Positions 28,168 through 53,596 of a stretch of 64,000 nucleotides of DNA are shown here, piece after piece. The notes under the pieces were generated by a model. The model was not told where the DNA came from. It searched no databases and saw only the letters and a list, made by a program, of their open reading frames with translations. This DNA is from Chloroflexales bacterium ZM16-3 (GTDB taxonomy: Bacteria > Chloroflexota > Chloroflexia > Chloroflexales > Chloroflexaceae): the NCBI GenBank assembly GCA_004138175.2, contig RYFE02000002.1:124001-188000 (forward strand), given 5' to 3'. A program made the translations under genes and the position numbers. Within the stretch, counting starts at the first letter, position 1. Each line of letters begins with the position of its first letter.

Positions 28168-28254
28168 AGCAGGGTATAGGGAAGCATTAGGGAGGCTTAG
28201 TACACAAGCTGTGCCGCAGTGCGTCATCATTATACCATCAAGGGCAATAGCGCG

Positions 28255-28381
28255 GCGGGCGACTGGAAGTCGCGCCGACGGGGCGCTGCGCGCCGGGCGT
28301 CGGCCTGCGCCGACGCTGGAGCCGCCCGCGCAGGCGGGCGGGCAGCCGCAGGCTCCTTAGGCGCGACTTCCAGTCGCCCGC
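28255..28381. repeat. 127-base palindromic element with 22-bp perfect arms
   Basis: Positions 28255-28276 (beginning GCGGGCGACTGGAAG) are the exact reverse complement of 28360-28381. The 83-base interior is itself GC-rich and self-complementary in parts (GCGCCGGGCGTCGG / CCGACGC). No direct repeat was seen at its borders. It resembles a dispersed palindromic repeat or structured RNA. Confidence 0.75.
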
Positions 28382-42835: not shown

Positions 42836-43198
42836 TTATTTGACCGTGAAGGACTTGGTCAGGCCGGAATAGGGCAGGCCCTGCGCCCCAACGCTGGCGA
42901 TCACCGCGTAGTTGCCGGGCGCGAGATCAAGCGTGGTGTAGAACGAGTCGCCCAGGGTGTAGCCCATAAGCCCGCCCACCGGGCTGAAGTCGGGCATCTT
43001 TGCAGGCTGCTGGCCGCCGAAGAGAAAGGCGAAGGCTGGTAGGATATCCTCAGCCTTCGTGTCGCCGCCAAGCTTGACGATGAAGGCCCAGCCGTCCGGG
43101 TCGCCGCTGGCGTTCACGACCTTGAGCGTATGGGTGCCGGCGCTCAGCTCCGGGATGCTGTAGTCGTCCTTGCCGATCGTTATAGCACTGAGCAGCAT
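42836..43198 (-). pseudogene. C-terminal domain of a split two-domain lipoprotein
   Basis: 120 codons of a cupredoxin-like or Ig-like domain starting TIGKDDYSIPELSAGTHTLKV and ending YSGLTKSFTVK. It lacks a signal peptide and a ribosome site. The same domain type is present in the lipoprotein gene just upstream on the strand, and removing 103 bases (43181-43283) would join both into one 289-residue frame. The ATG at 43198 is therefore probably within the inserted segment and not a true start. It is likely not expressed as an exported protein. Confidence 0.6.
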
Positions 43199-43283
43199 GC
43201 TTGAGCCACTGAGGCACTGAACTTGGTGGCTCGCTGCGCTCGCACCTTCCTATTGACAGGCTCAATCCCTCTGCCCGCCGCTA
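43181..43283. mobile_element. Putative 101-base MITE-like insertion with TA target duplication, splitting a lipoprotein gene
   Basis: On the minus strand the segment starts TAGCGGCGGGCAG and ends with GCTA followed by TA. The ends are imperfect inverted repeats: the TAGC terminus, GGCAG/AGCAG and TTGAGCC occur at the same spacing in both arms. Flanking TA on each side is the target duplication typical of IS630/Tc1-type elements. It also contains an internal GAGCCAC/GTGGCTC inverted repeat. Its removal restores an open frame exactly. No coding capacity. Confidence 0.5.
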
Positions 43284-43808
43284 TAGCGTGGCGTCGGCGG
43301 CGGGTACGGTGGCCTCGCTGCTTGCCGCAGTCACGGTGAATGCCTTGACGCTACCTTTGGCAAAGTCGGGCGTCGGATCGTCCAGGTTGCCACGCGAGAC
43401 TGAGAGGATCACCCAGTTCCCTGGCACAAGCTGAACAGTGGCCTGGTTCATCTTGCCTGGATCAGTATCGGGGATGAAGAATGCCTGGTCGGTCGGCGGC
43501 TGCGCGTCCTCCTGTTCCATCGCCGTTAGCACCTGTGCTACGGTTGCACCATCCTTCAGGCGCATCACCACACCGTGATGATTGATCTTGCCGTCGTTGC
43601 GAAAGGTCAGTGCGACCCAGCCCGATGGCAGGCTATCGGGCATATCGAACGCGAAGTCTCTGGCACTGATCGTGACGGCGGGGATGGTTGCGGCAGCGGT
43701 GGGGGCGGGCACAGGGGTGGGGGCGACACCGCCAGCCTGGCGCGTGCCGCAGCCTGCCATGACGATCACTGCCAGCAGCGTGCATACCACAATGCGACAT
43801 CGTTTCAT
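43281..43808 (-). CDS. Lipoprotein, N-terminal part of a split two-domain gene
   Basis: A 175-residue lipoprotein. The signal peptide (MKRCRIVVCTLLAVIVMAGC) ends in a lipobox with Cys20. A Pro/Ala-rich linker (PTPVPAPTAAATIPA) leads to one beta domain of about 110 residues (TISARDFAFDMPDSLPSGW, then LVPGNWVILSVS) that resembles cupredoxin-like domains without obvious copper ligands. The stop TAG lies within the putative insertion at 43281-43283, right after PAADATL, the linker expected before a second domain. GAGGAGG precedes the ATG. The truncated product could still be exported and anchored to the membrane. Confidence 0.75.
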   Translation of the reverse strand: MKRCRIVVCTLLAVIVMAGCGTRQAGGVAPTPVPAPTAAATIPAVTISARDFAFDMPDSLPSGWVALTFRNDGKINHHGVVMRLKDGATVAQVLTAMEQEDAQPPTDQAFFIPDTDPGKMNQATVQLVPGNWVILSVSRGNLDDPTPDFAKGSVKAFTVTAASSEATVPAADATL

Positions 43809-51964: not shown

Positions 51965-53206
51965 CTAAAGCCCCGCGGCTTCTCGTGAGCCATCCGCTGG
52001 ATGTGCCTCCCGAGCTACATGCCCCGTGTCTGGGGAACTACGGCGCACAAATGCACGCCGATACTTGACGGAGCCAACCTGTACATGGCCGAACGCGCCA
52101 TGCACCGCCTGACTCTCCTGATTGACGGCCCCTACGGCGTCCCGATGGCCGACAAACCCACAGCGGGCGCAGCGGTAGTTCCGCCCCTTGGGTTTGTTGT
52201 GTCGGCCACAGACGGGGCATGTCTTGGAGCTATACGCCTCGCTCTGCCGTTCCAGGGCGATCCCCTCGGCGGCGAGCTTGTAGACCAGGAACGCGATCTG
52301 CCGTCCGTGCGACCAGCCGCTCACCTTCTGCTGGGCGTTGCGGTTCAGCCGCTTCCCATTGGCGATGTCGCGGATGTCGCCCACCACCAGCCGTTTCGTG
52401 CCTTCGGCCTTGGCGTGGTTGGTGATCGCCCGTGTGACCTTGTGTTCAATATCGCGCCGCTGGCGGTTGTTGCGGGCCAACAGATAGGTCTTGCGCCGCT
52501 GCATCTTCTTCCAGCGGCGCGACTTCTTGGTATGGCGGCTCTGGCGGGTTTGCAGGCTGGCGAGCCGCTTGTTGCGGTACTGGTTGAGCGCCCGCAGGTC
52601 GCGGGCCGTGAAGATCACCACGTCGCCCGCCTCGTTGGCAATCGCCGCCGGGTGGATCTCGCCCAGGTCGGCGGCGAGGGTCCGCCCCTCGCTACGCAGG
52701 GGCGTCTCCACCCCGTCGTCTACGACCAGATGCCAGCGATGCCGCTTGGCGATCAGGTCGTACACCAGCCGCATCTCGACAAAGGCCGTCTTGGGCAGGG
52801 TGGTGAGGTCGGAAGGCAGGGCGACGGCAACTGGCTCCAGGCCACGGGCGCGGGCCAGCAACAGTCTGCCGTCTTTGGCGCGGATGCCCGTCGCTTTCCA
52901 GCTTGTGGTGCGGTAGAACTTCCGTTTGTGTGGATACTTCCCGCCCTCGGCGCGGGTGGCTTTCGCGGTCTTGCATGCCTTGTAGAAGGCTTGTTGTGCG
53001 GCGTCCCGGCTATGGGCGTGCAGCGTAGTCGGACTGAGCGAGTCGTTCAGCTTTTCGGCAGCACCCTGCGAGAGCCAGTGGCCGGTGCGTCGATAGATGC
53101 GGTAGTGCCACACCAGGGTGTCGGTGTAGACCCGCCCGCTCTCGCGGTTCAAGGCGTCGGCCTCGCTCCGGGGCAGGTGGCACTCAAGGATGTGCGTGCG
53201 AATCAC
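51965..53206 (-). CDS. tnpB: TnpB, RNA-guided nuclease of IS605 (variant RuvC-II)
   Basis: A 413-residue OrfB/TnpB protein. The N-terminal helical part is followed by a RuvC-like nuclease: RuvC-I LAADLGEIHPAA (catalytic Asp), RuvC-II KRLVVGDIRDIANG, the zinc finger CPVCGRHNKPKGRNYRCARC, and RuvC-III GHRDAVGAVNQ (catalytic Asp). In well-studied TnpB the RuvC-II motif is an E followed by D (IEDLN-like); here the E position reads G. This G-D-x-R-D form is known to me from a TnpB subgroup in cyanobacteria and Chloroflexi, and activity is uncertain. The start is GTG at 53206, immediately after the tnpA stop. Confidence 0.9.
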   Translation of the reverse strand: MIRTHILECHLPRSEADALNRESGRVYTDTLVWHYRIYRRTGHWLSQGAAEKLNDSLSPTTLHAHSRDAAQQAFYKACKTAKATRAEGGKYPHKRKFYRTTSWKATGIRAKDGRLLLARARGLEPVAVALPSDLTTLPKTAFVEMRLVYDLIAKRHRWHLVVDDGVETPLRSEGRTLAADLGEIHPAAIANEAGDVVIFTARDLRALNQYRNKRLASLQTRQSRHTKKSRRWKKMQRRKTYLLARNNRQRRDIEHKVTRAITNHAKAEGTKRLVVGDIRDIANGKRLNRNAQQKVSGWSHGRQIAFLVYKLAAEGIALERQSEAYSSKTCPVCGRHNKPKGRNYRCARCGFVGHRDAVGAVNQESQAVHGAFGHVQVGSVKYRRAFVRRSSPDTGHVAREAHPADGSREAAGL

Positions 53207-53596
53207 TTAGATCCCTTTTTGGGCTTCGATGTAGCGTTTGACGGTTTCGCTCGATACATTGCCTGCGGTCGCAGCGAAATACGAGCGTGTCCACAGCGAG
53301 GGCAGGCGGCGCAGGCTCGGGTACTTCACGCGCAGGTCGTGACTCGTGACGCCCTTACATTCCTTCACGACATCCGCAGCCGAAACGTTCGGCCACACGC
53401 GCACGAACAGGTGAATGTGATCCGGCTGGACGGCCAGTTCGATCACGTCCCATCCCTTTTCGGTACACTTCGCCTCAATCAGCGCCCGACAATCAAGGCC
53501 GATAGCGCCCGTAAGTACAGCCTTGCGGCGCTTGGGTGTCCAAACGAGGTGATAAACGATGAGGTGGACTCGGTGTTCATCGCGCTGATATTCCAT
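53207..53596 (-). CDS. tnpA: TnpA, Y1 transposase of IS200/IS605
   Basis: A 129-residue single-strand transposase. The HUH motif is PDHIHLFV and the nucleophilic Tyr is in SSETVKRYIEAQ near the C-terminus. The N-terminal VHLIVYHLVWTPKRRKAVL and VTSHDLRVKYP are family-typical. Length is slightly below the usual 130-150. It cuts and rejoins single strands at subterminal hairpins. The reading frame is intact, so the element may still move. Confidence 0.92.
   Translation of the reverse strand: MEYQRDEHRVHLIVYHLVWTPKRRKAVLTGAIGLDCRALIEAKCTEKGWDVIELAVQPDHIHLFVRVWPNVSAADVVKECKGVTSHDLRVKYPSLRRLPSLWTRSYFAATAGNVSSETVKRYIEAQKGI

Follow-up and report, generated by a model that had tools for sequence, protein, structure and literature searches.

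A 101-bp MITE-like element within a two-domain lipoprotein gene of a Chloroflexales bacterium

Bacterial MITEs are described as 70–300 bp in length (PMC3733652), and several small families that use TA as their target are known. RUP is a 107-bp repeat with inverted ends, TA at its ends and a TA target, recorded in 108 copies, and IS630-Spn1, which has similar ends, is its proposed mobiliser (PMC2229807). The IS630 insertion sequences duplicate TA (PMC2170065). ERIC/IRU/RU-1 and Correia/NEMIS are small TA-ended palindromic repeats that duplicate their target, with some copies inside genes (PMC2229807, PMC10969869). REPs are given as 20–40 bp repeats with GTAG at one end (PMC3733652).

Here we describe a locus that resembles these systems in a 64,000-nucleotide stretch of the genome of Chloroflexales bacterium ZM16-3, referred to below as the window. 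With a probability of roughly 0.94, a 101-bp non-autonomous element of the MITE kind entered a TA site within a gene encoding a two-domain, probably cupredoxin-like lipoprotein, and the TA was duplicated. A preliminary description of the locus had proposed that a TA-flanked insertion of about 101 bases splits a lipoprotein gene. This proposal is borne out by further copies of the segment, an empty site in a sister genome, restoration of the reading frame and an intact homologue. The features of the locus are listed in Table 1.

Table 1. Features of the interrupted gene and of the inserted element (window coordinates; strand given where applicable).
Feature	Position	Strand	Basis or remark
Interrupted two-domain lipoprotein gene	42836..43808	-	289 codons without the insert; fused frame and homologue L071
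N-terminal half: signal peptide with lipobox, first domain	43281..43808	-	175 aa from ATG at 43808
C-terminal half: second domain, 120 aa	42836..43198	-	No signal peptide seen
101-bp non-autonomous repeat, MITE-like element	43183..43283	+	Copies, identical copy at G000:C2, sister empty sites
Left terminal inverted repeat, imperfect	43183..43210	+	18/28 match right end
Right terminal inverted repeat, imperfect	43256..43283	-	18/28 match left end
Left copy of duplicated target TA	43181..43182	.	Sequence; duplication demonstrated at L014/L072, inferred for the window copy
Right copy of duplicated target TA	43284..43285	.	Sequence; duplication demonstrated at L014/L072, inferred for the window copy

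The locus carries two ORFs on the minus strand, and both run into the element: the stop codon of the first (TAG, 43281–43283) and the ATG of the second (43196–43198) lie inside it. Deletion of 103 bases (43181–43283), which comprise one target TA and the 101-bp element, yields a single frame of 289 codons plus a stop, in agreement with the fusion of 289 residues described earlier. In the fused frame, the residues T-I-G-K-D-D directly follow the linker ATL. This frame-restoring deletion is exactly the one predicted by the element boundary from sister empty sites, and TA stands on both sides of the element as had been reported. The N-terminal half contains the lipobox MAGC, which was recognised by eye. 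As also noted at the outset, the second ORF shows neither a signal peptide nor a recognisable ribosome site. A consensus scan of 43050–43450 for promoters and terminators gave no match.

Homologues support the reading of the two ORFs as one gene. Residues 37–289 of the fused protein align at 30% identity (E 6.7e-27) with an uninterrupted lipoprotein of 287 residues, L071, whose contig bears the title Sphaerobacter sp. MAG; the alignment is ungapped at the junction. A 316-aa ORF in genome G036 also contains both domains, so that uninterrupted two-domain homologues, a check proposed in the preliminary description, do exist. The same description had called the two halves related domains; blastp with composition correction switched off detected a weak similarity between them (E 0.008). 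Neither half of the split gene matched Pfam at E 0.1, and L071 had no match among PDB sequences. L071 did give sub-threshold matches to sulfocyanin and cupredoxin models. A structure search with its model (pLDDT 65.9) returned multicopper oxidases and auracyanin among other beta-sandwich proteins, with TM-scores that were mostly low, and this modelled resemblance is taken as a lead only. A model of the N-terminal half was unusable (pLDDT 44.5). Given the sub-threshold matches of L071 and the resemblance of its modest model, the product of the fused gene is likely to be a tandem cupredoxin-like lipoprotein.

The events at the locus can be reconstructed as follows. Before insertion, the site would have carried a single TA within the lipoprotein gene. 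Recognition of the inverted ends presumably fell to a transposase acting in trans, and insertion would have duplicated the TA. The edge of the element places a TAG stop immediately behind the first domain, and a one-domain lipoprotein could therefore still be made. The second domain, left with no signal peptide or recognisable ribosome site, is probably lost; a one-domain lipoprotein is thus the expected outcome.

The element has the properties by which MITEs are recognised: a length of 101 bp, no ORF of its own, dispersed copies, terminal inverted repeats and, at a sister site, a duplicated TA. Its orientation was set by the left end, TAGCACTGAGC; the segment that separates the two ORFs starts with TA-TAGCACTGAGC and finishes with GCTA-TA. 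The imperfect inverted ends reported earlier are complementary at 18 of 28 positions (64%) in the window copy, a score reached by none of 10000 mononucleotide shuffles. A separate arm search paired 30-nt arms (43178–43207 and 43259–43288) that are 70% complementary. The copy at L030 scores 20/28 and has AGCACTGAGC at both ends, and some diverged copies score lower (e.g. 10/27 at L032). Among ORFs of at least 60 aa, none belongs to the element itself, and all those that overlap it continue into the flanks. The consensus ends both read TAT-AGC-...-TGA, and the upstream frame is closed after 7 extra codons. A stretch of 157 bp at L028:1501-1657 contains two left ends in facing orientation and may be a head-to-head dimer.

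The element is repeated throughout its own genome (G000; 6.27 Mb, 127 contigs), where at least 41 matches were found at E≤0.001 on many contigs, including the window copy. This count is a lower bound because 40 of 181 places from the first look were scored. An exact left-end pattern gave 33 matches in this genome and a shorter one 36, compared to 0 for the reversed control of each. One other copy (G000:C2:68780-68880) matches that of the window at every one of the 101 bp, an identity suggestive of recent movement. Further genomic copies of the segment, which the preliminary description had recommended seeking, are therefore abundant. Within the genus, matches occur in three of six genomes (at least 41 in G000, 18 in G002 and 1 in G001). 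The pattern search was positive in 4 of 41 genomes of the family, representing two genera, and in 3 of 82 genomes of the order, also in two genera. A second genus contributes one diverged copy (G029), which aligns with the element over its full length. Six pairs of copies occupy a common site in G000 and G002 (L009/L060, L019/L064, L033/L111, L039/L200, L028/L203 and L194/L062, the last including a truncated copy), and some insertions are therefore old. L195/L205 was dropped as a seventh pair, as its elements were not placed at one site.

Other repeats were encountered in the same sequences. At 28253–28381 the window contains a different repeat, palindromic and GC-rich, that spans about 130 bp and has similar stretches at L003, L015, L058 and L060. 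The flanks at L016:1610-1690 and L032:1605-1640 carry further repeats (GATTGTAGATTG/TGCAATCTGCAATC units and GGGGCGCGTCGCGACGCGCCCC palindromes) that are matched dozens of times in genomes of the genus.

Duplication of TA was demonstrated through an empty orthologous site. The joined flanks of 30 copies other than that of the window (25 from G000, 5 from G002) were compared with the six genus genomes, and at least eight of the 30 sites were matched in another genome with 40 or more bases on each side of the junction, among the matches listed. Among those matches, junction-spanning empty sites were found in G002 for L014, L011, L016, L007, L018 and L022, in G004 for L021, and in G000 for the G002 copy L058. 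The site L014/L072 is exact: the empty sequence in G002 reads TCTCTATC-TAGGGA and the occupied one C-TA-element-TA-GGGA. The element thus duplicates TA, since an empty CTAG corresponds to an occupied C-TA-[element]-TA-G. Among the eight junction-spanning sites, exact duplication is seen at L014 alone, and the rest are compatible with it to varying degrees. The empty site of L058 aligns ungapped over 136 bases at 95% and has CTGG where CTAG is expected. At L016/L084 and L007/L091 the left edge agrees (CTAG and CTAA, respectively) and the right flanks have diverged. Several junction bases differ at L011, 15 extra bases are present at L018, and substitutions or indels lie close to the junction at L021 and L022. 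A match of L006 in G001 extends just 16 bases beyond the junction. For the gene interrupted in the window, the five other genus genomes yielded no empty allele; it is not visible because the sole match to the window protein among them, in G004, is weak (23% identity over residues 7–135).

Insertion sites show a clear sequence preference. With L013, L060, L064 and L115 excluded and orthologues counted once, 31 two-ended copies have C..G outside the TA in 17 cases, C..A in 7, T..G in 4 and a different pair in the remaining 3. CTAG is accordingly found at 17/31 copies, compared to a share of 5.3% among the TA sites of the window (p 2e-14), and the base before the left TA is C, not G, in 24 of the 31. 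The copy at L013:1500-1605 has AA on its left and TT on its right in place of TA.

Stop codons are frequent among the targets. Exact insertion into the stop of a coding-scored ORF was recorded for 10 of 32 independent two-ended copies, and at the empty orthologous site of L016 the same frame ends in TAG. In the window, 32 of 52 scored genes have a TAG stop, and non-interior CTAG sites are stop codons in 4/13 cases. After subtraction of five copies taken as gene-interior, the resulting 10/27 exceeds the proportion of stops among all non-interior TA sites in the window (37/237; p = 0.006), with no excess shown over YTAR sites (12/46; p = 0.14) or CTAG sites (4/13; p = 0.30). The CTAG preference alone may therefore account for the stop-codon insertions. 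A version of the test with one-ended copies, which gave stronger p values, was dropped; it held orthologous duplicates and copies whose right ends were not known. TAG is also the commonest stop in the window (66% G+C), where it ends 20 of the 31 ORFs that reach 300 aa and do not overlap. Targeting of CTAG, together with the prevalence of TAG as a stop, may explain why such repeats gather at gene ends.

Several stop-site copies (e.g. L017, L030, L032, L035, L055) have the left end TAGAGC instead of TATAGC and keep the host stop. The third base is often G in stop-codon insertions, which recreates TAG at once; it is G in 5/8 stop-site copies versus 2/23 others (p = 0.006). This association may be confounded by element age. 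We consider it unlikely that the family is adapted for harmless landing in TAG stop codons, in which case the repeat would become the 3' flank of its host gene and could act on the mRNA. The window copy lies 346 and 578 bases inside the ORF as reconstructed. Where a scored ORF crosses the junction of another two-ended copy, that copy lies 2–52 bases from one end or the other of the ORF, except for L002 (99), L022 (92) and L013 (434). The distances at L002 and L022 look like the result of over-extended starts, and that at L013 is uncertain because AA and TT replace its flanking TAs. On these distances, the mid-gene position of the window copy is unusual for the family.

Insertion of a TA-duplicating MITE leaves the question of its parentage. 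The preliminary description had likened the segment to MITEs derived from IS630/Tc1 elements, and we give a specific IS630/Tc1/mariner origin slightly less than even odds. The TA duplication at L014/L072 and the preference for CTAG speak in its favor, and a title cited in PMC2170065 refers to an IS630-associated transposon that prefers TA in 5'-CTAG-3'. Against it, the own genome gave no DDE_3 match, and the sole one in the genus, in G004, has an in-frame stop and no matching ends. In the family, 30 of 41 listed DDE_3 matches were scanned for element ends and none was convincing; the best end-like match, TAGCACTGGGC (1 mismatch; L141 and L153), is isolated and short and lies about 900–950 bp past the domain. 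The five DDE_Tnp_1 loci of the own genome also lack matching ends. The earlier comparison is thus supported in part, by the target behavior, while IS630 parentage is unproven. A scan for both ends, covering the window and the loci of the copies, yielded a single pair of ends on the same strand with more than 1 kb between them (L016; 234 and 1582), and the intervening ORF encodes a STAS-domain protein, not a transposase.

An alternative, that the repeat belongs with the REP/RAYT elements and owes its movement to a Y1 (HUH) transposase, and so is not a DDE-type, TA-duplicating MITE, appears very unlikely. It would fit with the five Y1_Tnp matches in the genome, one of them within the window (53207–53596), with the many diverged or truncated copies, and with the few left ends that are preceded by G and so read GTAG (L024 minus, L035, L039). 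The exact empty site and the two inverted ends argue for a TA-duplicating MITE instead, as do the shorter length and single GTAG end ascribed to REPs in PMC3733652. None of the five Y1 loci is bordered by element ends; a copy near L053:696, some 800 bp from a Y1 fragment, proved to be diverged and to lie where another ORF ends. The Y1 transposase in the window adjoins a TnpB-like ORF (51965–53206, recognised by eye); both are on the minus strand, and the two form an IS200/IS605-type pair (51965–53596).

Least probable of all is that two separately functional adjacent genes flank a conserved intergenic regulatory repeat: the element supplies the ATG of the second ORF and its + strand folds somewhat better than shuffled sequences (z -2.24, 5/200 as good), but the fold lacks significance on the strand that carries the genes, the minus strand (z -1.12), the second ORF has no signal peptide or promoter match, the homologues are single two-domain genes, and the alignment of the fusion has no gap at the junction. 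In alignment folding of the copies, the covariation term was 0.05 kcal/mol and 1/23 pairs showed a two-sided change, and an RNA role is therefore without covariation support. An Rfam scan of 43100–43360 returned 0 matches up to E 1.

Interruption of a lipoprotein gene by a MITE is an ordinary kind of event, and the present case is a clean and well-supported example of a MITE breaking a coding gene. Gene predictions will be wrongly split at such repeats. The empty orthologous sites, together with a transposase that was not found, raise the question of which enzyme mobilises the family. Among the papers found on miniature inverted-repeat elements with Chloroflexus or Chloroflexi, none has a title that points to such an element in this lineage.

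Among known systems, REP/RAYT repeats are likewise short, palindromic and present in many copies; the element differs in its 101-bp length, its two inverted ends, its TA duplication and the lack of bordering ends at the Y1 loci (n=5). With the IS630 insertion sequences (Tc1/mariner-like) it has TA duplication in common, as well as a CTAG preference according to the title cited in PMC2170065; it differs in having no transposase gene and no autonomous relative that could be found. By their descriptions, ERIC/IRU/RU-1 and Correia/NEMIS are similarly small, TA-ended and target-duplicating and have intragenic copies, and they reside in other hosts. The small TA-ended bacterial MITEs are called A+T-rich in PMC2229807, unlike the element. 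RUP has a proposed mobiliser with similar ends in IS630-Spn1, whereas none was found here. In all, the kind is a known one, that of small bacterial MITEs with TA duplication, and the element is a new family within it, likened to RUP, ERIC and Correia on the basis of their descriptions. As described in PMC2229807, RUP is the closest of these in size and target, with about the same length, inverted ends, and TA both at its ends and as its target.
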